From Verrucomicrobiota bacterium (GTDB lineage: Bacteria > Verrucomicrobiota > Verrucomicrobiia > Chthoniobacterales > Terrimicrobiaceae): a stretch of 64,000 nt of DNA. The DNA lies in NCBI GenBank assembly GCA_026398275.1, contig JAPLTF010000024.1, forward strand, positions 1-64,000. Reading direction: 5' to 3'. The notes under the pieces are model-generated. The model had not been told where the DNA came from. It saw nothing but the letters and a program-made list of their open reading frames with translations, and made no database searches. The position numbers and the translations under genes are program-made. Shown piece after piece: positions 7,462 through 39,506 of this stretch (positions are counted from its first letter, which is position 1; each line of letters begins with the position of its first letter).

Positions 7462-8042
7462 TTGGAAATGAAGGGCAGTTTGATTTTCCCGTGGCACGCG
7501 TGGTAGAACCACTGGCGCCGGAAGAGCGAGCCCCACAGGCTCCAGCAGTTGAAATAGAACTGCCGGTTGAACCGTCGGTCGAGGAGCTTCTCCATCCGGC
7601 GGTAGAGCATCACGCGGCTCAGCGCGCGCTGGTCCCAGAACGGATCGGTGTCGAGCAGGGCCTCGTCAAAAAGGGATTTGATCGCGTCGTCCGGATGATA
7701 CACCAGCACCCCGCTGTTGATCTGGTAGGGGAGCTTGTCGGGGACTCCGGCAATTTTTCCTTCGGGAATCACCGGGAGCGCCGGGGCATCGCGCGCGATG
7801 ATGATGTCTGCATCAATAAACGCAACCTGGGCATAGTCCCGCCACCAAGGCAGGTCGGGCAGGCAGAGCTTCTGCCACGTGAATTTCCGTCCCGGGAGAT
7901 CCCGCACCGGCTCGGTGAGGATGATCGGGTCATAGCCGTGGCGTTTCGCGTAATCCTCAAATCGCTTGCGGGAGTATTGGTCGAAAGCCTTCAGGTAGGG
8001 AGCGCCGACGACGATCGTGCAGAGGGCGGTTTTTTGTTTCAT
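7437..8042 (-). CDS. Glycosyltransferase with DxD motif (GT8-like)
   Basis: The 201-residue protein has a GT-A-type fold signature: a strand-rich start (TALCTIVVGAPYLKAF), a metal- and nucleotide-binding FIDADIII motif at about 75-82, and INSGVLVYHPDD further on, all typical of small transferases that act on NDP-sugars. There is no membrane segment or signal peptide. Its start overlaps the stop of the GT2 gene (ATGA). It is shorter than most GT8 enzymes, and the acceptor cannot be predicted. Confidence 0.75.
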   Translation of the reverse strand: MKQKTALCTIVVGAPYLKAFDQYSRKRFEDYAKRHGYDPIILTEPVRDLPGRKFTWQKLCLPDLPWWRDYAQVAFIDADIIIARDAPALPVIPEGKIAGVPDKLPYQINSGVLVYHPDDAIKSLFDEALLDTDPFWDQRALSRVMLYRRMEKLLDRRFNRQFYFNCWSLWGSLFRRQWFYHACHGKIKLPFISNWLRFTFR

Positions 8043-9109
8043 GTGAGCGTGGTGGTGCGGGTGTCTTTCCAGAGGCCTTTGCCCAGCCCGGATTTCAGCC
8101 GGGCGTTGGATGCGAAAAAGACAGCCAGGTCATACGGGGTTGCTGCGGCTGCGATGGCGAGGAACTTCAGCTTCGCGGCCCCCTTGGCAAACCGCACGCG
8201 CCGCCAGCGCATCATCAGCGAGGGCGTGTCCATCACCCACCAGCCGCGGCTCCGGATCGTGGACTGGATCTCCCGCACGAACCATTCCGGATCGTCACGG
8301 GACAATTTCAGCAGCGCATCAAAGACCGGCCGCTCGGGAATCTCCCGCCTCACGTAGGCGGTGAAATACGTGTAGAGCGTGTGCCCGGTCGCCTGCCGGA
8401 TCTGGTGGTTCCAGATGTCGCGGAATTTCGTGTAGCACTCGAAGAGGTGGCTGGCCCCCTCGGCGCGAACGATCCGGGAGTTGTCCACCGGCTGGCTGTA
8501 GCCCTCGGTGCAGAGGATCTGCTTGATGAAACCGTCGTCCACGATGAGCCCGCGCGGAATCCAGACCCGCCGCAGAAATGCGGCGCGCGCGCAGTAGAGC
8601 TGGCCGGTGAGCTGGCCCGGGGCTGCCTGGGTCATGGATCCGGTGCCGAGGAGCAGGCGGTCGAGCAGATTAAGATTTTTTTTCTTCGCGAGATGCTTGA
8701 CCGGAAGGTCGGTCGAGATCGATGCATGCGGGGTTTTTTCGAGGGCGAGCCACATGTGCTCGAGGGTTTCCGGCGTGAGGAGTTCGATGTCGGCATCGAG
8801 CAGGAGAAAATAGTCGGCATCCGGCGGCGAGAGGCGGTGGACCAGCTCGTTCCACGCATTGGATTTTCCACCCTCGCGCAGCGGCTCGACGCGACCTTTC
8901 ACCAATGGAAAGGCGTCGGTGAGCTTTTTCAGCGCGGCCGCGGCCACCTCGGGCGTGCGGTCGCTGCATCCGTTCGGCACAACAAGGATCTCCACAAGGA
9001 AACTCCGGTCATCGGCGAGCTTGAGAAGGCTCTGGCATTCGAGGCTGCCGATGGTGGCGGCGATCGAGGATTCCTCATTCCATGCCAGAATTCCGAGAAC
9101 GATTTTCAT
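8039..9109 (-). CDS. Family 2 glycosyltransferase
   Basis: GT2 enzymes transfer sugars from NDP-sugars to growing glycans. The N-terminus MKIVLGILAWNEESSIAATI and the LLLDADIELLTPETLEHMW segment with its DxD motif are characteristic, and a C-terminal helical region follows. The ATG at 9109 is chosen because it leaves five bases after the upstream stop, whereas the upstream ATG at 9133 would overlap that gene and add residues unlike the family. The 356-residue protein is probably soluble or peripheral. Confidence 0.85.
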   Translation of the reverse strand: MKIVLGILAWNEESSIAATIGSLECQSLLKLADDRSFLVEILVVPNGCSDRTPEVAAAALKKLTDAFPLVKGRVEPLREGGKSNAWNELVHRLSPPDADYFLLLDADIELLTPETLEHMWLALEKTPHASISTDLPVKHLAKKKNLNLLDRLLLGTGSMTQAAPGQLTGQLYCARAAFLRRVWIPRGLIVDDGFIKQILCTEGYSQPVDNSRIVRAEGASHLFECYTKFRDIWNHQIRQATGHTLYTYFTAYVRREIPERPVFDALLKLSRDDPEWFVREIQSTIRSRGWWVMDTPSLMMRWRRVRFAKGAAKLKFLAIAAAATPYDLAVFFASNARLKSGLGKGLWKDTRTTTLT

Positions 9110-32179: not shown

Positions 32180-32437
32180 ATGCGAACGACGATGGAAATC
32201 CCTGACGCCATTTTCAAGAAAGCCAAGCTGCGGGCCGTGCAGGAAGGCGTGGCGTTGAAGGAGGTGGTCACGCGGGCGCTCGTGCGCGAGCTGACGCCCG
32301 GCGGCGGCAATGCGGCGCTGAGAAAAGCGAGGGCCGGGCGGCTTTTCAAGGAATTGGACAAGGCGGGAAATTCCCGTCCGGTCGGTCGTTTGAACCGTAA
32401 GGAAATCTATGACCGCCCGGTGCTTCGCGGACACTAA
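32180..32437 (+). CDS. vapB: VapB-type antitoxin
   Basis: The 85-residue protein begins MRTTMEIPDAIFKKAKLRAV with a strand-helix pattern, followed by GVALKEVVTRALVRELTPGG, consistent with a ribbon-helix-helix DNA-binding antitoxin. Its last 29 bases overlap the PIN toxin gene. No Shine-Dalgarno precedes the ATG, which coincides with the predicted transcription start, so translation is probably leaderless. A second in-frame ATG four codons on also lacks a binding site. Confidence 0.8.
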   Translation: MRTTMEIPDAIFKKAKLRAVQEGVALKEVVTRALVRELTPGGGNAALRKARAGRLFKELDKAGNSRPVGRLNRKEIYDRPVLRGH

Positions 32438-32828
32438 CATCTTTCTTTACGCGGCGTCGAAGGCCTCGGAGGACCGCGGGAAAAGGAAGGTGGCGCGAAC
32501 GCTTCTGGAATCGGAAGACGTGGGAATTTCGGCCCAGGTTTTGCAGGAGTTCTTCGCGGCCGCCGCAGGAAAGAAGCGCCTGGGCATCTCGGAGGCGGAG
32601 GCTTTGCAGGCCATCACTGCGATGAGGGAGTTCCCCGTTTTGCCGGTGACCGGAGAGCTCGTGCAGGAGGCCATCGGCCTGAAGGCCAGGCATGGCATCT
32701 CCTACTGGGATGCCGCGATTGTCGCCGCCGCCCACGAGCTCGGCTGCGAAGTGCTCTACACCGAAGACCTGAATGACGGCCAGGACTACGGCGGCGTTAT
32801 CGTTCGAAATCCATTCGTGAAGTCCTGA
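32409..32828 (+). CDS. vapC: PIN-domain toxin of the VapC type
   Basis: The 139-residue protein carries the PIN set: CFADTNIFLYAASK (Asp near 8), Glu in AQVLQEFFAA, DAAIVAAAHELGC and YTEDLNDGQDYGG. The pattern matches COG5573-like PIN proteins. It overlaps its antitoxin by 29 bases, implying coupled translation. All acidic active-site residues look intact. Confidence 0.88.
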   Translation: MTARCFADTNIFLYAASKASEDRGKRKVARTLLESEDVGISAQVLQEFFAAAAGKKRLGISEAEALQAITAMREFPVLPVTGELVQEAIGLKARHGISYWDAAIVAAAHELGCEVLYTEDLNDGQDYGGVIVRNPFVKS

Positions 32829-32863
32829 GACAGGAGCGGGCGCGGGCAAAATCTGCAAGCAAG

Positions 32864-33271
32864 TTATGACCAGTTCTCCACTTTCAATCCCGGCACGCGG
32901 CGAAACTCATTTTCGTTTGCCGTCACCAGGATCGCGCCCACCGCGCGGGCTGTCGCCGCGATAAAGAGGTCGTTGGGCCCGATCACTTTTCCGGCGGATT
33001 CCAGCGCCGTCCGAATCCCGGCGTAGTGGTCGGCGCACGAATCGTCAAAATCCACAACAGTGACATTCGCCAGGAATCGATCGACCTGTTCCCGGTGAAG
33101 TTCTGGCCGTTGGCTCTTGAGGCAACCGACCAGCAACTCCGCCCGCACGACTTGGGAGACCGCAAGTTGCCCTGCGCTCACCGAGTTGATCTTTGCCCGC
33201 AATTTCGGAGACTTCGCCCGCAGGAACAGCACGACCGTGCTGGTGTCGAGATGGTAAAATGGGGATGCCAT
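32864..33271 (-). CDS. vapC: PIN-domain toxin of the VapC type
   Basis: The 135-residue protein starts MASPFYHLDTSTVVLFLRAK, placing the first PIN Asp at residue 9. Glu follows in SQVVRAELLVG, and GPNDLFIAATARAVGAILVT supplies the later Asp. It lies 12 bases after its antitoxin on the minus strand and converges with the preceding vapBC pair, a tail-to-tail arrangement. It looks intact and resembles the MazF-independent tRNA-fMet-cleaving VapC group; that substrate is a family-based guess. Confidence 0.88.
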   Translation of the reverse strand: MASPFYHLDTSTVVLFLRAKSPKLRAKINSVSAGQLAVSQVVRAELLVGCLKSQRPELHREQVDRFLANVTVVDFDDSCADHYAGIRTALESAGKVIGPNDLFIAATARAVGAILVTANENEFRRVPGLKVENWS

Positions 33272-33283
33272 ACGGGAGCGGCG

Positions 33284-33520
33284 CTAATCGAACGCCTCCC
33301 GGGGAGAATCGCTGGACGCAGGCAATTCCTTGGGCGCACGGAACGAAGCGTCCGAAATGCAGCCGTAAAAGACATCCAGCGTGCCTTTTCCGCCGTCCCG
33401 CCGCGCCGCTTCCTGAAGCCGCTCCCGCGCCCAACGCGAGATCGACACAGCTTCCCGGGCAGCGGCCGCCTCCACCGCCTTCTGCGTCGCTCCGTCAATG
33501 TAGATAGTCATCTGGGCCAT
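33284..33520 (-). CDS. vapB: VapB-type antitoxin
   Basis: The 78-residue protein begins MAQMTIYIDGATQKAVEAAA with the strand-helix-helix pattern of a ribbon-helix-helix repressor (SISRWARERLQEAAR), followed by an acidic/Pro-rich toxin-binding tail. The ATG at 33520 is chosen over an in-frame ATG at 33655 because the upstream stretch covers the promoter and the edge of the repeat. It is followed by its PIN toxin. Confidence 0.82.
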   Translation of the reverse strand: MAQMTIYIDGATQKAVEAAAAREAVSISRWARERLQEAARRDGGKGTLDVFYGCISDASFRAPKELPASSDSPREAFD

Positions 33521-33526
33521 GACAAA

Positions 33527-33554
33527 AGCATAGCAGACGAAGAGATCGATACAA
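33527..33554 (-). promoter_or_regulatory. Extended -10 promoter of the third vapBC operon, leaderless
   Basis: On the minus strand TGCTATGCT provides an extended -10 (TATGCT at 33532-33527), 16 bases from a weak TTGTAT. Only six bases separate the -10 from ATG 33520, so the transcript should start at or next to the start codon. Flanking sequence is AT-rich. Confidence 0.55.
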
Positions 33555-33594
33555 GTATATGTTGGCACATATATGAAATGTGTCACTCGCGACT

Positions 33595-33839
33595 GTTCAG
33601 CATTCGATCCGGCGTGTGCGCGAGCGGGTGAAGAAGGGTGGACACGATGTTTCAATCATTCACTTGAAACGCCGGTTTCTGCCCAGCCTGCACAATTTTT
33701 TCGGACTCTATCTCCCGCTTGCCGACAAGGCCGTTCTCTACAACTCCACATTGCATCCTCCAAAGTTGGTGGCACATGGAGGGAAGGAAAATTCGAGCTC
33801 CACTCACCTCGCGATTATGAATCCATCCGCTCCCGCTGA
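33595..33839 (+). pseudogene. Decayed C-terminal copy of a zeta-like kinase gene
   Basis: This segment matches the last 80 or so codons of the intact zeta-like gene at 35770: VQHSIRRVRERVKKGGHDV, LKRRFLPSLHNFF and DYESIRSR are shared. The P-loop half is absent. One base is missing near 33776, so the reading frame shifts between KLVAHGG and WREGKFELHSPRDYES. The protein cannot be a functional kinase. It retains its overlap with the small ORF starting at 33817, exactly as in the intact copy. Confidence 0.8.
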
Positions 33840-34020
33840 CCACCAGCCCGATGCCCATGACCGCTTCTTTGAGGAAGCGCAAGCCGCCATGCTCCGCGCC
33901 TCCCGACAGGTCACCGCCGAGAACCGGCGTCTCGGCCTCCCCCTGATTGTGGAAAGACCCAGGCACAAAAGGCCGGCCCGGAAGCGTCTCGTAAAGGGTG
34001 CCGCCCTTCTTCAGTTTTGA
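33817..34020 (+). CDS. Small partner protein of zeta-like kinase, second copy
   Basis: The 67-residue protein starts MNPSAPADHQPDAHDRFFEE and contains the core LRASRQVTAENRRLGLPLIV, closely matching the 57-residue protein at 36320. It overlaps the end of the decayed kinase fragment by 23 bases in another frame. Its reading frame is intact although the kinase beside it is broken, as expected for an antitoxin that outlives its toxin. The C-terminal extension KRLVKGAALLQF is absent from the other copy. Confidence 0.55.
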   Translation: MNPSAPADHQPDAHDRFFEEAQAAMLRASRQVTAENRRLGLPLIVERPRHKRPARKRLVKGAALLQF

Positions 34021-34096
34021 GACGATCCCACTTTCGGGGTCAGGTCAGAACGACTCAGCCCTTGAAGGATGGGCCGGATAGGTGTATCCATTCGCC

Positions 34097-34306
34097 ATGG
34101 GTGAGTTGATTTTCGAAGTGGTTCAGGAGGCCGATGGCGGGTTTGTCGCCGAGTGCCTGACCGAGCCGATTGTAACCCAGGGAGATGACTGGGCTGCGCT
34201 TCGCATTGCGGTGACGGATGCGGTCCAAGGCTATTTCTTTGATTCCCCCGCCCCCCAATCCGTGCGGCTGCATCTGGTAAGGGACGAAAGCTTCGCCCTC
34301 GCTTGA
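34097..34306 (+). CDS. hicB: HicB-like antitoxin (short form)
   Basis: The 69-residue protein begins MGELIFEVVQEADGGFVAEC and continues with LTEPIVTQGDDWAALRIAVTDAVQGYF, the partial RNase H-like fold of HicB-family antitoxins. It lacks a C-terminal DNA-binding domain, so it belongs to the short HicB class. The stop shares bases with the TTG start of hicA. The ATG at 34097 is preferred over one five codons upstream by family match. Confidence 0.8.
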   Translation: MGELIFEVVQEADGGFVAECLTEPIVTQGDDWAALRIAVTDAVQGYFFDSPAPQSVRLHLVRDESFALA

Positions 34307-34545
34307 AACTGCCCAGAGATCTCTCCGGAAGGGCGCTCGTCAATTGCCTCTGCAGGAACTGGGACTACAAGGCGCTTCACCAGTCCGGAAGCCACATCAT
34401 CCTTGAAACGGAAATTCCAGGCCACCAGAGAATTCCCGTCCCGGACCACTCGTTTCTTCGGGTTGGAACCCTGAATGCCATCCTGAGATTGGTGTCCGCC
34501 CACAAAGGCGTCTCGAAAGAAGATATTCTCGATATGCTGCAATAA
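34303..34545 (+). CDS. hicA: HicA-type mRNA interferase toxin
   Basis: HicA toxins have a double-stranded RNA-binding-like fold with a catalytic His. The 80-residue protein shows the key ALHQSGSHIILETE motif (His in GSH) and RIPVPDHSFLRVGTLNAILR, matching the YcfA/HicA family. The start is TTG at 34303, overlapping the hicB TGA, which fixes the frame. HicB before HicA reverses the order in E. coli but is common elsewhere. Confidence 0.85.
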   Translation: MKLPRDLSGRALVNCLCRNWDYKALHQSGSHIILETEIPGHQRIPVPDHSFLRVGTLNAILRLVSAHKGVSKEDILDMLQ

Positions 34546-34643
34546 TACCAATTCACCGGGGAGCTCCAACACTGGGGATCCCATCAATTCCACGCCATCC
34601 GCATGTGGAATTGCACGGTGCGGGCTGCTAGGAATAACCCCAA

Positions 34644-35780
34644 ATGATTTACCTCGACCACAATGCCACGACCCCCGTGCTACCGGAAGTGGTTGATGCG
34701 ATGATGCCATTCTTTCGCGAGGAATGGGGGAATCCGTCGAGTTCCTACCGGTTTGGGTCGAGGGTCAAGAAAGCCATCGAGACCGCCCGCGAACAGGTCG
34801 CGGAGCTGGTCGGTGCTCACCCGCTGGAGATCGTCTTCACGAGTGGGGGCACAGAAAGCGACAACACCGCGCTTCACGCGATGCTCCGTGCGGACCCGGC
34901 CAAGCGGCACATCATCACCTCGGTCGTCGAACACTCGGCCGTCCTCACATTCTGCCGGGGATTGGAGAAGACGGGCTTCCGGATCACCTGCCTGCCAGTG
35001 GACCGGGACGGGCTGCTCACGATGAGCGACCTGGAGAATGCCATCACGCCCGAGACGGCGGGCGTCTCGTTGATGTGGGCAAACAACGAGACCGGCGTCC
35101 TTTTTCCTGTCGAGCAAATTGCCTCGCTCTGCTGCTCACGTCGCATACTCTTCCACTGCGACGCTGTTCAGGCTGCGGGCAAGATCCCCATCGACCTGAA
35201 AAATGTTCCCGTTGATTACCTGTCGCTCACCGGACACAAGATCGGAGCGCCCAAGGGCGTTGGTGCTTTGCTCGTGCGGCGCAAAGCTCCGTTCTCCGCG
35301 TTCATCCAAGGCGGCCACCAGGAACGCGGGCGGCGCGGCGGAACCGAAAGCGTCCCGCTTGTCGCCGGTCTCGGATTGGCGGCGGAAATTGCCCGCAAGA
35401 AAACGGCAGCCTTTGACGGCAAAGTCTGGCCATTGCGCGATGCACTGGAGAACGGGATTCTCACCGCTATCCCGCACACCGAACTCAACGGTCACTCCAC
35501 GCTGCGCCTTGCGAACACGACGAACATCACGTTCCACGGAATCGAATCTGAAGCACTACTCCTCCTCCTAGATCAAGCCGGGATCTGCGCCAGCAGCGGG
35601 TCGGCCTGCCTCGCGGACTCGCCCGACCCCTCGCATGTTGTTGCTGCGATGAAGCCCGGAAGCGCGGCAAGGCAGTGCGTGAGGTTTTCGCTCGGGACCT
35701 CCACGCAGAAGGCGGATATTCAGAAATCGCTCTCAGAGCTTCGCGCAATTACGCGCACACTTGCTTCTCATGCCGGATAA
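34644..35780 (+). CDS. Cysteine desulfurase (NifS/IscS/DndA family)
   Basis: The enzyme takes sulfur from cysteine as a persulfide for FeS clusters, thiolated tRNA or phosphorothioate DNA. The 378 residues start MIYLDHNATTPVLPEVVDAM, and carry the PLP cofactor Lys in SLTGHKIGAPKGVGALLV, the TSGGTESDNTAL phosphate loop and the active-site Cys in ICASSGSACLADSPDPSHVV. No iscU, dndB-E or ssp genes are nearby. It overlaps the zeta-like kinase gene by 11 bases. A DndA/SspA-like role fits the defence context, but housekeeping iron-sulfur use cannot be excluded. Confidence 0.92.
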   Translation: MIYLDHNATTPVLPEVVDAMMPFFREEWGNPSSSYRFGSRVKKAIETAREQVAELVGAHPLEIVFTSGGTESDNTALHAMLRADPAKRHIITSVVEHSAVLTFCRGLEKTGFRITCLPVDRDGLLTMSDLENAITPETAGVSLMWANNETGVLFPVEQIASLCCSRRILFHCDAVQAAGKIPIDLKNVPVDYLSLTGHKIGAPKGVGALLVRRKAPFSAFIQGGHQERGRRGGTESVPLVAGLGLAAEIARKKTAAFDGKVWPLRDALENGILTAIPHTELNGHSTLRLANTTNITFHGIESEALLLLLDQAGICASSGSACLADSPDPSHVVAAMKPGSAARQCVRFSLGTSTQKADIQKSLSELRAITRTLASHAG

Positions 35781-36342
35781 CTCTCCCATCCTCTACCTGA
35801 TTGGCGGCCCGAACGGTGCCGGGAAGACCACTTTTGCAAAGCAGTTTCTACCGGCGGTCGGAGTCATGGAATTTCTGAATGCCGATTCCTTGGCGGCAGG
35901 ACTCTCACCCCTTGATCCGCCATTGGCGGCCACCCGAGCGGCGAGACTGCTCCTGTCGAGATGGAAGGAACTTGTTAATGGGCGGCAAAGCTTCGCCTTC
36001 GAATCCACACTCAGCGGCCGCACATATGCGACGATGATCCGCACGGCGAAGGCACAGGGGTATCGTCTGCACCTCTCCTACCTGTATCTGGAAACCGTTC
36101 AGCATTCGATCCGACGCGTGCGCGAACGAGTAAAGAAAGGTGGGCACGATGTTCCAGTTTCCGACTTAAAACGCCGGTTTCTGCCCAGCCTGCACCATTT
36201 CTTTGATCTCTACCTCCCACTGTCTGACGAGGCTCTTCTTTACAACTTCACCTTGCAACCGCCGCCCTTGGTGGCAGCTTGGAGGAACGGCAAACTGAAT
36301 GTCCACTCACCTGCTGATTATGAATCCATCCGCAACCGTTAA
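35770..36342 (+). CDS. Zeta-toxin-like P-loop kinase (COG4185 type)
   Basis: These proteins are predicted nucleotide or sugar kinases related to zeta toxins. The 190 residues contain Walker A in YLIGGPNGAGKTTFAKQF (about 13-20), AFESTLSGRTY (substrate-site motif) and the lid helix SIRRVRERVKKGGHDVP with two Arg. The start MPDNSPILY at 35770 matches the family and overlaps the desulfurase stop. The C-terminus overlaps the small ORF at 36320 by 23 bases. All motifs appear intact. Confidence 0.85.
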   Translation: MPDNSPILYLIGGPNGAGKTTFAKQFLPAVGVMEFLNADSLAAGLSPLDPPLAATRAARLLLSRWKELVNGRQSFAFESTLSGRTYATMIRTAKAQGYRLHLSYLYLETVQHSIRRVRERVKKGGHDVPVSDLKRRFLPSLHHFFDLYLPLSDEALLYNFTLQPPPLVAAWRNGKLNVHSPADYESIRNR

Positions 36343-36493
36343 ACACCCGTCAAAAGATCAATTTCTGCAACAAGCGAATGCTGCGGTGCTCCGCGTCTCC
36401 CGCCAGGTTGCCGCAGAGAACAAGCGCCTCGGACTACCACTTATCGTCAATGTTGCAAGGCATAGACCTCCCGCTCGCAAGGCCAAAGCTTGA
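36097..36493 (+). repeat. Direct repeat copy B of the zeta 3' end plus small ORF (copy A at 33595-33995)
   Basis: The nucleotide sequences of 36097-36493 and 33595-33995 align over about 400 bases at roughly 75-80% identity by eye, both starting with GTTCAGCATTCGATCCG. They lie 2.5 kb apart in the same orientation and bracket hicBA, the cysteine desulfurase and the 5' part of the kinase gene. Divergence is spread out and copy A has a frameshift, so the duplication is old. Confidence 0.75.
36320..36493 (+). CDS. Small partner protein of zeta-like kinase, candidate antitoxin
   Basis: The 57-residue protein starts MNPSATVKHPSKDQFLQQAN, with a predicted amphipathic helix (AAVLRVSRQVAAENKRLG) and a LPLIV strand before a basic tail. 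It overlaps the kinase C-terminus by 23 bases (the kinase codons for DYESIRNR). The second copy at 33817 keeps the same overlap. Such small helical proteins with a PLIV-type end accompany COG4185 kinases in many genomes, so an antitoxin role is likely but unproven. Confidence 0.6.
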   Translation: MNPSATVKHPSKDQFLQQANAAVLRVSRQVAAENKRLGLPLIVNVARHRPPARKAKA

Positions 36494-36512
36494 TTCCAAA
36501 CGAAAACCGCAA

Positions 36513-36761
36513 ATGACACTCGAACTCTACAAGGACGCAGTCATGAGCGTGGACCTGCCCGAATACGGTCTCCGCAAGGGCGATATCGTGAAGCTCATCG
36601 ATGATCTCGATGCAGCCGACGGATCCCGCGGCTATGCCGTGGAGGTTTTTGACGTTTTTGGAAACACCATTGATGTTCAGTTCATTCCGGCAAATGCCGT
36701 GGAACCGCTCCGGACCGGCGAGGTTTATTGTATCCGCTCCCGCGAACACGCGGCTGCCTGA
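36513..36761 (+). CDS. DUF4926-family protein
   Basis: The 82-residue protein starts MTLELYKDAVMSVDLPEYGL and contains RKGDIVKLIDDLD, YAVEVFDVFGNTID and a valine/proline-rich end, the beta-barrel-like pattern of DUF4926. DUF4926 proteins often sit beside toxin-like genes and are suspected antitoxins; no partner toxin is adjacent here. It starts 19 bases after the preceding small ORF. Confidence 0.7.
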   Translation: MTLELYKDAVMSVDLPEYGLRKGDIVKLIDDLDAADGSRGYAVEVFDVFGNTIDVQFIPANAVEPLRTGEVYCIRSREHAAA

Positions 36762-36784
36762 GCGGTTCGGTTGGAGCGGCGGCC

Positions 36785-37006
36785 ATGAATACAACCCCGG
36801 CCAAGTTGCTTGATGTCGTTGCCGTGCTTGAAGACAAGCCCACATCCGGGCTCGTTGCCGGACAGGTGGGAACCATCGTGGAATTGCTGGCACCCGATGT
36901 TTTTGAAGTGGAGTTCTGCGACCTTGTGGGAAACACCATCGGTTTTGCGGAACTGTGCCGCCATGAGTTTCTTGTCCTGCGCCACGAGGCTGCTTTTGCC
37001 GCGTGA
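36785..37006 (+). CDS. Second DUF4926-family protein
   Basis: The 73-residue protein (MNTTPAKLLDVVAVLEDKPT) has GLVAGQVGTIVELL, FEVEFCDLVGNTIG and a C-terminal Leu-rich strand. It matches the preceding gene in the same pattern, including a shared GNTI, so the two are diverged tandem paralogues 23 bases apart. No separate toxin gene is visible between or after them. Confidence 0.7.
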   Translation: MNTTPAKLLDVVAVLEDKPTSGLVAGQVGTIVELLAPDVFEVEFCDLVGNTIGFAELCRHEFLVLRHEAAFAA

Positions 37007-37008
37007 AT

Positions 37009-37250
37009 TTGGCAGCCGGTTGCTCGATTGAGGTCTTCAATGCCCTCGCCGACAGTATTGCGCTGTAATGATCGACGAGGGCCATGACTTCGAGCCCGCG
37101 TGGCTCTGCCTGGTCACCCAGATGACCGATCCCGAACAGGATTTCCTGCTCCTGCTCTATGTCGGCATGACGCGGGCCAAAGAACAACTGCTCCTGACTT
37201 CTTCGGAGCCAAACCCGTTTACCGAACGCCTCACGGCACTGGCTGCCTGA
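37009..37250 (+). pseudogene. Remnant of a UvrD/superfamily I helicase
   Basis: A fragment in one frame encodes IEVFNALADSIAL and then stops. In another frame MIDEGHDFEPAWLCLVTQM is a Walker B/motif II region, followed directly by FLLLLYVGMTRAKEQLLLTS, which is helicase motif VI. In intact helicases these motifs are about 150 or more residues apart, so a large internal deletion is present. The gene is not functional. It abuts the stop of the methyltransferase-HNH-S24 gene on the other strand. Confidence 0.72.
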
Positions 37251-39506
37251 CTATTTCAGCACTTCCAGCATCGTCCCGAGAATCGGGTGGGAGGTTTCAT
37301 TTTTTGAAACCCGGATCGGCTGGTGGGCCGGGTTGTCTGATTGGAATATCCAGCAGTCCGCATCCTGAGTGATGCGCTTGATCGCTTCGGTGCCAGGGCT
37401 GCCGGCACCGAATTCCGGGAGGTTTGCGATAATGATCTCGCGGTCGCGGCGAGGGGAGCGGTGGTATTCGAAGACGACGAGATCGCCGATCCGGAGAGTC
37501 GGCTCCATCGAGTCGCCGGCGACGCGCACGACGAAGCGGCCGGACTTCGCAAGGTGCCCGGGAACTTTGATCCAATCGAGGTCGCCGCTGGCATCGAGCG
37601 AGCCGGGTTCGAGTCCGTGGAACGGGTTTCCGGCGGCGAGGGAGCCGACGATGGGGAGATGGGTCTTGAATGCGCCATCGCCCACCTCGGGGAACGGAAT
37701 GATGTTCGCGGTCACGAATCCCTTGGGCGTGCCGCCGCCGTGCATTCTTTCCTCCGGCTCCGGATAGCGAACCGGCGAGGGCTGCGGGCGTGAAACTGGC
37801 GGTGCAGTGGCGACGCGACTTTCGACTTCCCATCGTCCTGCGCCGCGTTGATTGGCGGTGACCTCGAATGCCTCGACAAACCGCGCGAACAGGCGGGGCT
37901 CCCAACTGCCGGGCCTGAACGGATCACGGCCGAGAAGGGTCTGCGCCTCGCGGGCGAATCGTTCGCCGAGGGCGGAGTCCAATCCGCGCCAGTAGTGGAT
38001 GATCGTGTCGCGCTGTCGGTGAAGCAGGCCGTAGGTAGGAAGCTTGTCGCTTTTCGCGGCATTGATACCCGGTGCAGCGGGAAAAAGATTCCAGAGGTCG
38101 TTGTTCCGCCAGAGCGAGAACGGCATCGCGTGGTCCACCGCAAAGTCCGCTTCGAGCGACCTGTCCGACCACACGCAGACGCGATCCGGCAGCGACTGAA
38201 AGTAGCGCCGGGCATCGTTGACATTCCGGGCTGGATCGGGGATCGCCAGCAGGCAGTCGATCACCAGGCTGGCTTTCACTGCGCCCTTCGTGAGCTGTTC
38301 AGTCAATTCCGCCCAGCGGAGAATCGTGGCATCATGGATCCAGCTTCCGGTGAGGCACAGTTCGCGCCAGAGGTTCGCGTCCATGCAGATGCTTTTGTCG
38401 AGTCGGTCGTATTGGAAAACATCGAAGTCGCCGCCACCCGCGTGGCGGACGGGCATGGTCCAGATCGTGTTTTGAAATTTCGCGCGCGCCGATTTCCAGA
38501 GCCTTGCAGCATCCTTCGTGAGGGTTCCGCTTTTCCAATCCGTATAAAATCCGGTCAGGCCGCCGGAAGTGCGGAAATGGTTGATCAGCGTTTCGAGCGG
38601 AGGGCGTATCGCGACGCCGCTGCCGCCTCCCCTTTCCTCGCCGGTCCGCTGGCCGATGAATGCCGCGCTCTCGAAAATCGGCCAGTAGTAGAGCATCCAT
38701 TTATCGGCGATCGCCTCGACCGGGATTTTGACTTTTCCTTCGGGTGTGTAGGCGGCGAGATGGTTCTGCGTCTGCGCGATTTCTGCAAGGGCCCGGAACA
38801 ATGCCAGCTTGTAGGTGGCGTCCTTTTTGTCGCGGTTCAGGATGCCCTCAACGAGATGGAGCGGTCGTTCCGCGGACTCGTCGAGGCGCACAAACTCGAT
38901 CACACACCATTGGATTCCGTCGCGCCCAAGAGAATCCGCGACAATTTCGGAATTGCGGACGGAGAATCCCACCCGTTCGAAAAGCAGTTGCAGCTTCGCG
39001 GGTGGCAAGTCGCTGAACAGACGACCGTGAGCATCCCGACGTGTCGCGGGATCCACATCACTTCGCGAGCAGGGAACAGAAACAAGGAGCGTGCCGCCGG
39101 GCTTGAGAACCCGGCGGAGCGCATAGACGGTATCAAAGATTTTGTCCTCGGGCAGATGCATCAGGACAGCCGAGCAGAGAATACCGTCGAACTCCCCCTC
39201 GTCGAAGCGGCTCAGATCAGGCAGCTCCGCTTCGAGCAAGCGTCCATCCACCCTAAGCCCGTCCGCCTCGAGCGCGGATTGAGCGGCCGTAAGCATCGCC
39301 TGCGATGCATCCACCCCGAAAGCGTCTTTGCCATTCTTCAGTAAGAAGCCGAGGTCGCGTCCGGTGCCGCAGCCGACATCAAGGATTCGCCGGCTCTTCT
39401 CAAATGTCCGCAGGAGGCGGCTTTCAAACTCCGGCGAAACCCCGGCATACCCGGAGGCGAGCCGCGAGGCATTTGTCGAATAGAATTCCGATGTCCGGGC
39501 ATCCAT
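37251..39506 (-). CDS. Methyltransferase, HNH nuclease and S24 peptidase fusion
   Basis: Three domains lie in 751 residues. A class I SAM methyltransferase (about 1-200) has motif I RILDVGCGTGRDLGF and FDGILCSAVLMHL. A helical region and HNH nuclease follow (about 210-520), with DHAMPFSLWRNNDLWNLFP near 457-475 and KSDKLP. The C-terminal S24/LexA-like peptidase (about 615-751) shows the cleavage motif LPIVGSLAAGNPF near 618-628, catalytic Ser in VAGDSMEPTL near 665 and Lys in EAIKRI near 709. All three S24 features are kept, so self-cleavage that frees the nuclease part from the C-terminal domain is plausible. It converges with the helicase remnant. Confidence 0.82.
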   Translation of the reverse strand: MDARTSEFYSTNASRLASGYAGVSPEFESRLLRTFEKSRRILDVGCGTGRDLGFLLKNGKDAFGVDASQAMLTAAQSALEADGLRVDGRLLEAELPDLSRFDEGEFDGILCSAVLMHLPEDKIFDTVYALRRVLKPGGTLLVSVPCSRSDVDPATRRDAHGRLFSDLPPAKLQLLFERVGFSVRNSEIVADSLGRDGIQWCVIEFVRLDESAERPLHLVEGILNRDKKDATYKLALFRALAEIAQTQNHLAAYTPEGKVKIPVEAIADKWMLYYWPIFESAAFIGQRTGEERGGGSGVAIRPPLETLINHFRTSGGLTGFYTDWKSGTLTKDAARLWKSARAKFQNTIWTMPVRHAGGGDFDVFQYDRLDKSICMDANLWRELCLTGSWIHDATILRWAELTEQLTKGAVKASLVIDCLLAIPDPARNVNDARRYFQSLPDRVCVWSDRSLEADFAVDHAMPFSLWRNNDLWNLFPAAPGINAAKSDKLPTYGLLHRQRDTIIHYWRGLDSALGERFAREAQTLLGRDPFRPGSWEPRLFARFVEAFEVTANQRGAGRWEVESRVATAPPVSRPQPSPVRYPEPEERMHGGGTPKGFVTANIIPFPEVGDGAFKTHLPIVGSLAAGNPFHGLEPGSLDASGDLDWIKVPGHLAKSGRFVVRVAGDSMEPTLRIGDLVVFEYHRSPRRDREIIIANLPEFGAGSPGTEAIKRITQDADCWIFQSDNPAHQPIRVSKNETSHPILGTMLEVLK

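Follow-up and report, generated by a model that had tools for sequence, protein, structure and literature searches.

A LexA-type self-cleaving module appears to have been plugged repeatedly onto the C-termini of restriction subunits that are not related to one another (Type I, II and III enzymes, Schlafen-type helicases and methyltransferase-HNH proteins). It would wire these enzymes directly to the signal of DNA damage, and the enzyme itself could then switch restriction off (or on) without any transcription, a general reading to which we give about an even chance. For one such protein, a methyltransferase-HNH (MTase-HNH) nuclease of restriction type from a Verrucomicrobiota bacterium, we propose, tentatively and at somewhat under an even chance, that the S24 tail is a plug-in off-switch, a form of built-in restriction alleviation. 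The gene occupies 37251..39506 on the minus strand of the window (the whole 64,000-nucleotide stretch of contig JAPLTF010000024.1 that was analyzed) and encodes 751 aa from an ATG at 39506. This start codon call is taken as right because the homologs have the same first residues (MDxRT..Y). The strand had not been given in the original prediction; the minus strand is the coding one, and a plus-strand reading of the locus was rejected, as the frame is not open. The protein consists of a class I methyltransferase, a helical domain, a Cas9-type HNH core, a disordered linker and an S24/LexA-like domain that lacks a helix-turn-helix (HTH). The predicted order of three domains was thus confirmed, with Pfam matches to all three, and every quoted motif was found: DHAMPFSLW..NLFP..KSDKLP, SLAAGNP (A625-G626), Ser666 in GDSM and Lys710 in AIKRI. 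An AF2 model of the window protein, made with 40 family members, had a mean pLDDT of 83.9, with the domains predicted confidently, and fell below 50 at the linker (residues 564-599) and at a loop (622-638).

The neighbors scanned in the window were a GDSL lipase gene and a stretch rich in toxin-antitoxin genes, with a UvrD stub at its end. That stretch (32180-37250) contains VapBC-like, PIN, HicB/HicA-like and zeta toxin genes, zeta-toxin pieces and two DUF4926 genes, with an IscS-like aminotransferase gene interspersed. The stub (37068-37250, plus strand) is a 60-aa UvrD C-terminus (PADLOC NERD+UvrD, E 2.1e-10), the relic of a lost helicase neighbor, and its stop codon abuts the convergent MTase-HNH-S24 gene.

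The C-terminal domain (residues 613-751; 37254..37670, minus strand) matches Peptidase_S24 (PF00717) in Pfam at residues 618-746 (2.8e-13, 50.0 bits against a cut-off of 23.3), and a profile of the fused S24 domains retrieved only UmuD, LexA and cI from the PDB. Its identity as an S24 domain was therefore upheld, and the non-peptidase fold that would have spoken against it was not seen. Like LexA, UmuD and lambda cI (MEROPS S24), it stands at the C-terminus and has a Ser-Lys dyad (predicted catalytic Ser666, 37509..37511, and Lys710, 37377..37379, both minus strand) and an Ala/Cys-Gly bond (predicted scissile bond Ala625-Gly626, 37629..37634, minus strand). Unlike them, it lacks an HTH DNA-binding domain and any role in Pol V, its cargo is a methyltransferase-nuclease, and its cleavage is predicted. 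In the model, the low-confidence loop at 622-638, around the predicted cleavage site, resembles LexA's mobile cleavage loop.

The dyad is always kept and the Ala-Gly site almost always, the pattern to be expected if RecA stimulates self-cleavage. All 21 MTase-HNH-S24 homologs have the Ser and the Lys, and all but L087 the Ala/Cys-Gly pair. Among all fused S24 domains collected, of which 43 are distinct, 46/46 have the dyad and only L060 and L087 lack the [A/C]-G pair, figures somewhat favored by the collecting profile, which weights the Ser, Lys and scissile columns heavily; as a sequence pattern, this conservation across unrelated partners is still informative. The two exceptions retain the dyad without the scissile Gly, and the cleavage region of L079 is shortened and divergent. 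Such cases would suit an S24 domain that does not cleave and instead dimerizes, or docks on a ligand or a RecA filament and so recruits the nuclease to DNA that is damaged or replicating, the dyad being structural; S24 domains are indeed dimerization modules in LexA and UmuD. Pure dimerization, however, needs neither the dyad nor the scissile pair, and both are kept in nearly all of the 43 distinct domains and on many partners, and we consider this explanation unlikely.

The S24 domain is under purifying selection, with a dN/dS of 0.12-0.17, equal to that of the HNH domain, and the variable linker (residues 561-612, of which 564-599 are predicted to be disordered; 37671..37826, minus strand) is 18-41% identical between the window protein and its nearer relatives, with a dN/dS of up to 0.46; these are Nei-Gojobori estimates, and some pairs are near saturation. 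Selection on the tail argues against a chance fusion or a decaying gene whose tail is without function. The toxin-antitoxin-rich region with its gene remnants might suggest such an accident, which we hold to be extremely improbable; for the family it is refuted, since at least 20 other genomes share this domain order and the same core bears two S24 subtypes. These subtypes separate on the S24 tree and do not fully match the HNH tree (five label changes, in quick trees with several weak forks), so the core has probably gained or swapped its tail more than once. No TGTTC-N4-GAACA sequence, which we take to be the relevant LexA box, was detected at up to two mismatches in 17 upstream regions, a result that has no bearing on post-translational control.

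The predicted nuclease core, an HNH (beta-beta-alpha-metal) fold of Cas9-HNH-like type, spans residues 454-490 (38037..38147, minus strand). In the window protein, HNH_4 matches this region below the Pfam cut-off (8e-4, 19.8 bits against 22), and in homologs L055 and L056 it is above it (26.1 and 30.3 bits). Absence of the HNH His and Asn across homologs had been named as grounds for refutation, and the opposite was found: D458, H459, N473, N482, K485 and D487 are invariant in 46/46 sequences, and the general base His and the metal-binding Asp/Asn are present (D458, H459, N473 and N482). The AF2 model places strands at 456-459 and 474-477 and a helix at 479-485. Folded alone, residues 206-560 reached a pLDDT of 88.4, and nearly all of the structures they matched were Cas9 HNH domains, best of all that of Nme1Cas9 (Z 7.2, 92 residues, rmsd 3.1); this modeled match is modest (Z at most 7.2) but appears consistent with the conserved HNH residues. 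The fusion has a D-H...N...N..K-S-D-x-x-P core, and its NxxKSDxLP run presumably resembles that of Cas9 HNH, with what we take to be Cas9-type residue spacing. Unlike Cas9, it has no RuvC and no guide RNA, and the N-terminal half of the domain lacks a clear fold match.

The N-terminal domain (residues 1-205; 38892..39506, minus strand) is a class I SAM-dependent methyltransferase, matched by Methyltransf_25 at residues 41-138 (4e-19), with SAM-binding motif I (LDVGCGTGRD, residues 42-51; 39354..39383, minus strand), whose glycines are conserved in the family. It is not a DNA-modification methyltransferase. The DNA amino-MTase motif IV, [DNS]PP[YFW], was found in 0/43 family MTase domains, and the fold matches of the METHYLTRANSFERASE domain are class I enzymes of small-molecule and RNA type (3e23, Z 24.5; METTL6, Z 22; UbiG, Z 21.8); the domain is therefore not the modification half of a restriction-modification (R-M) system. 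A reading of the protein as an R-M fusion was rejected for want of a DNA-MTase motif. The methyltransferase region also matches the Mad2 profile of MADS in PADLOC (E 1.8e-20, profile positions 267-468 of 492), but the match covers neither the HNH nor the S24 part and no MADS gene set was seen among the neighboring genes scanned, and MADS membership was rejected. Between the methyltransferase and the nuclease lies a conserved, mostly helical domain without a Pfam family (residues 206-440, with ATYKLALFRAL and YYWPI; 38187..38891, minus strand). It is common to all MTase-HNH relatives and is conserved together with the HNH everywhere, including in proteins without the methyltransferase; its match to residues 88-242 of ScoMcrA (Z 6.5, rmsd 4.3) is too weak to use.

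The original prediction called for a genome-wide search for the same architecture, and at least 20 other genomes proved to encode the whole of it, S24 domain included. Nearly all belong to Verrucomicrobiota, Lentisphaerota or Kiritimatiellota; one is an alphaproteobacterial MAG. The architecture is thus not an accident of the window genome. Outside these three phyla, relatives mostly lack the tail. The usual form in Proteobacteria and others, annotated as class I SAM-dependent methyltransferase, has the same methyltransferase, helical domain and HNH, is collinear with the window protein and about 25-45% identical to it, but has no S24 tail. Such tail-less proteins are common, so the core does not depend on S24 for its retention. 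In some genomes (L141-L143), the methyltransferase and the HNH are separate genes. On an Acinetobacter plasmid (L026:6900-8542), a broken methyltransferase gene and an intact HNH gene directly precede a WYL regulator and a BREX operon. The plasmid collection yielded one weak match to the S24 tail, which is therefore not typical of plasmids. A phage origin of the fusion was not supported, as a search for close relatives in viral contigs returned none.

The neighbors of S24-bearing MTase-HNH genes vary and are often defense-like. They include NERD, MazG and an SLFN-g3 helicase itself ending in S24 (G328), PLD-helicase-DUF3427 (G456 and L074), an SMC-like ATPase matching PbeC (L069 and L113), PglW (L083), and Mrr with HNH_2 (L067). 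In L055 (4498-10607), MTase-HNH-S24, NERD, MazG-like and SLFN-g3 helicase-S24 genes form an apparent operon beside a ZacC-like gene, placing two S24-tailed proteins side by side. The setting around many homologs favors the part of the original prediction that made the protein a defense effector, though not its activation by cleavage as an abortive effector; at the window locus, a defense role is suggested by homology only. The same neighborhoods would suit a tail that reports infection rather than host damage, its cleavage being altered by phage-caused DNA damage or by phage RecA inhibitors. Nothing specific supports infection sensing, and the viral-contig result also counts against it; we judge it very unlikely.

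The tail is not restricted to the MTase-HNH family. Strong matches (profile A5, E <1e-20) occur in 23/388 genomes of the phylum, and in every fused protein found the S24 domain is C-terminal. The tailed ORFs comprise SLFN-g3 helicases (ten loci), HsdR, HsdS, an AlwI restriction endonuclease, three ResIII/Type III-like Res proteins (L063, L182 and L187), a DEAD/MZB helicase of 2000 aa, an HNH_2 protein, a helicase with HNH_repeat and a PLD-helicase (L122). Several adjoin a modification gene: AlwI-S24 a DNA methyltransferase gene of the D12 class, HsdS-S24 an N6_Mtase gene, and the Res-S24 proteins of L182 and L063 a Type III Mod gene and an N6_N4_Mtase gene, respectively. A betaproteobacterial SLFN-g3-S24 (L196) indicates that the tail extends beyond a single phylum. 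The PLD-helicase of L122 (682-3951) ends in S24 and its relatives in L058, L090 and L128 end in DUF3427, and from these sequences the two seem to be interchangeable tails; the gene before the L122 helicase is a methyltransferase of the MTase-HNH family. In L061 (around 7800-8700, minus strand), a decayed nuclease-like gene (DUF1016-like by eye) is followed by a stop and then by a type I S24 domain.

In the proposed off-switch, the S24 domain, while uncleaved, probably keeps the enzyme dimeric and masks a degron. Upon host DNA damage, RecA-ssDNA filaments would stimulate Ser666 and Lys710 to cut the Ala625-Gly626 bond, and the MTase-HNH part would be detached with a new C-terminus, -PIVGSLAA. 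ClpXP would then destroy this freed part, as it does the LexA N-terminal fragment, and the activity of a nuclease presumed to act on invading DNA would fall while the host repairs its own. The proposal builds on the observed architecture, its conservation, the purifying selection and the recurrence of the tail on restriction proteins, and on a host that encodes RecA, LexA and ClpX and whose tmRNA (ssrA) tag, ADYEDLALAA, ends in -ALAA. The predicted neo-C-terminus, -SLAA, resembles that ssrA end, a ClpXP degron, and it is by an end of this kind that ClpXP clears the N-fragment of LexA. LAA stands at the predicted cleavage end in 10/13 type I tails, and type II tails have AAA, AAC or ATA. The LAA ending may, however, reflect only the cleavage-site preference of S24, as LexA-type sites are alanine-rich anyway.

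The same residue evidence for cleavage would serve the opposite outcome, put forward in the original prediction, in which S24 inhibits the MTase-HNH core and RecA-stimulated cleavage frees an active, toxic nuclease for abortive defense upon DNA damage. Tail-less relatives could then be constitutively active forms under other control, and many homologs adjoin defense genes. Yet S24 would need to act as the inhibitor of many unrelated enzymes (HsdR, AlwI, Res, SLFN-g3 helicase and HNH) through an unconserved, disordered linker, and a host whose nuclease became active upon any DNA damage would kill itself; we find this activation doubtful and, in the form predicted, unsupported. The off-switch fits better because tail-less relatives are common, the linker is neither conserved nor ordered, the tail sits on the R side of ordinary R-M enzymes and the cleaved end is degron-like. 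One tail plugged onto unrelated enzymes by a floppy, fast-changing linker suggests a generic output (dimer loss and degradation) rather than enzyme-specific autoinhibition, and a module shared by restriction subunits is more readily understood as a means of controlling restriction than as an activator of one particular enzyme.

Destruction of a restriction enzyme after DNA damage has a precedent in the restriction alleviation of E. coli, where ClpXP destroys the HsdR of the Type I enzyme EcoKI (PMC11109961); this shows that cells need the outcome proposed here. The signal of EcoKI is not a fused LexA-like domain, and its alleviation is independent of LexA self-cleavage, so the link to the off-switch is one of analogy (PMC11109961). 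Two further points count against the off-switch. The tails of L087 and L060, with the dyad kept and the Gly lost, may serve another role, and HsdS is needed for modification too, so that its tail is left unexplained by a restriction-only switch. In L065 (6870-10552), the HsdS gene with the S24 tail overlaps its HsdM gene, an odd arrangement for such a switch.

All the parts are known, but no description was found of their combination or, more importantly, of its recurrence across restriction enzymes: a search of the open-access literature (subscription papers and most preprints being outside its scope) returned no account of an S24 tail on restriction enzymes. To our knowledge, the protection of a cell's own damaged DNA from its restriction enzymes is understood in detail for only a few Type I enzymes, through ClpXP acting on HsdR. 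If the proposal is true, the self-restriction problem would have a new and directly testable answer in a self-contained LexA-type switch carried by many restriction enzymes. Such a switch would couple immunity to the SOS signal at the level of the protein, and engineered enzymes could be given it as a portable off-switch controlled by damage.
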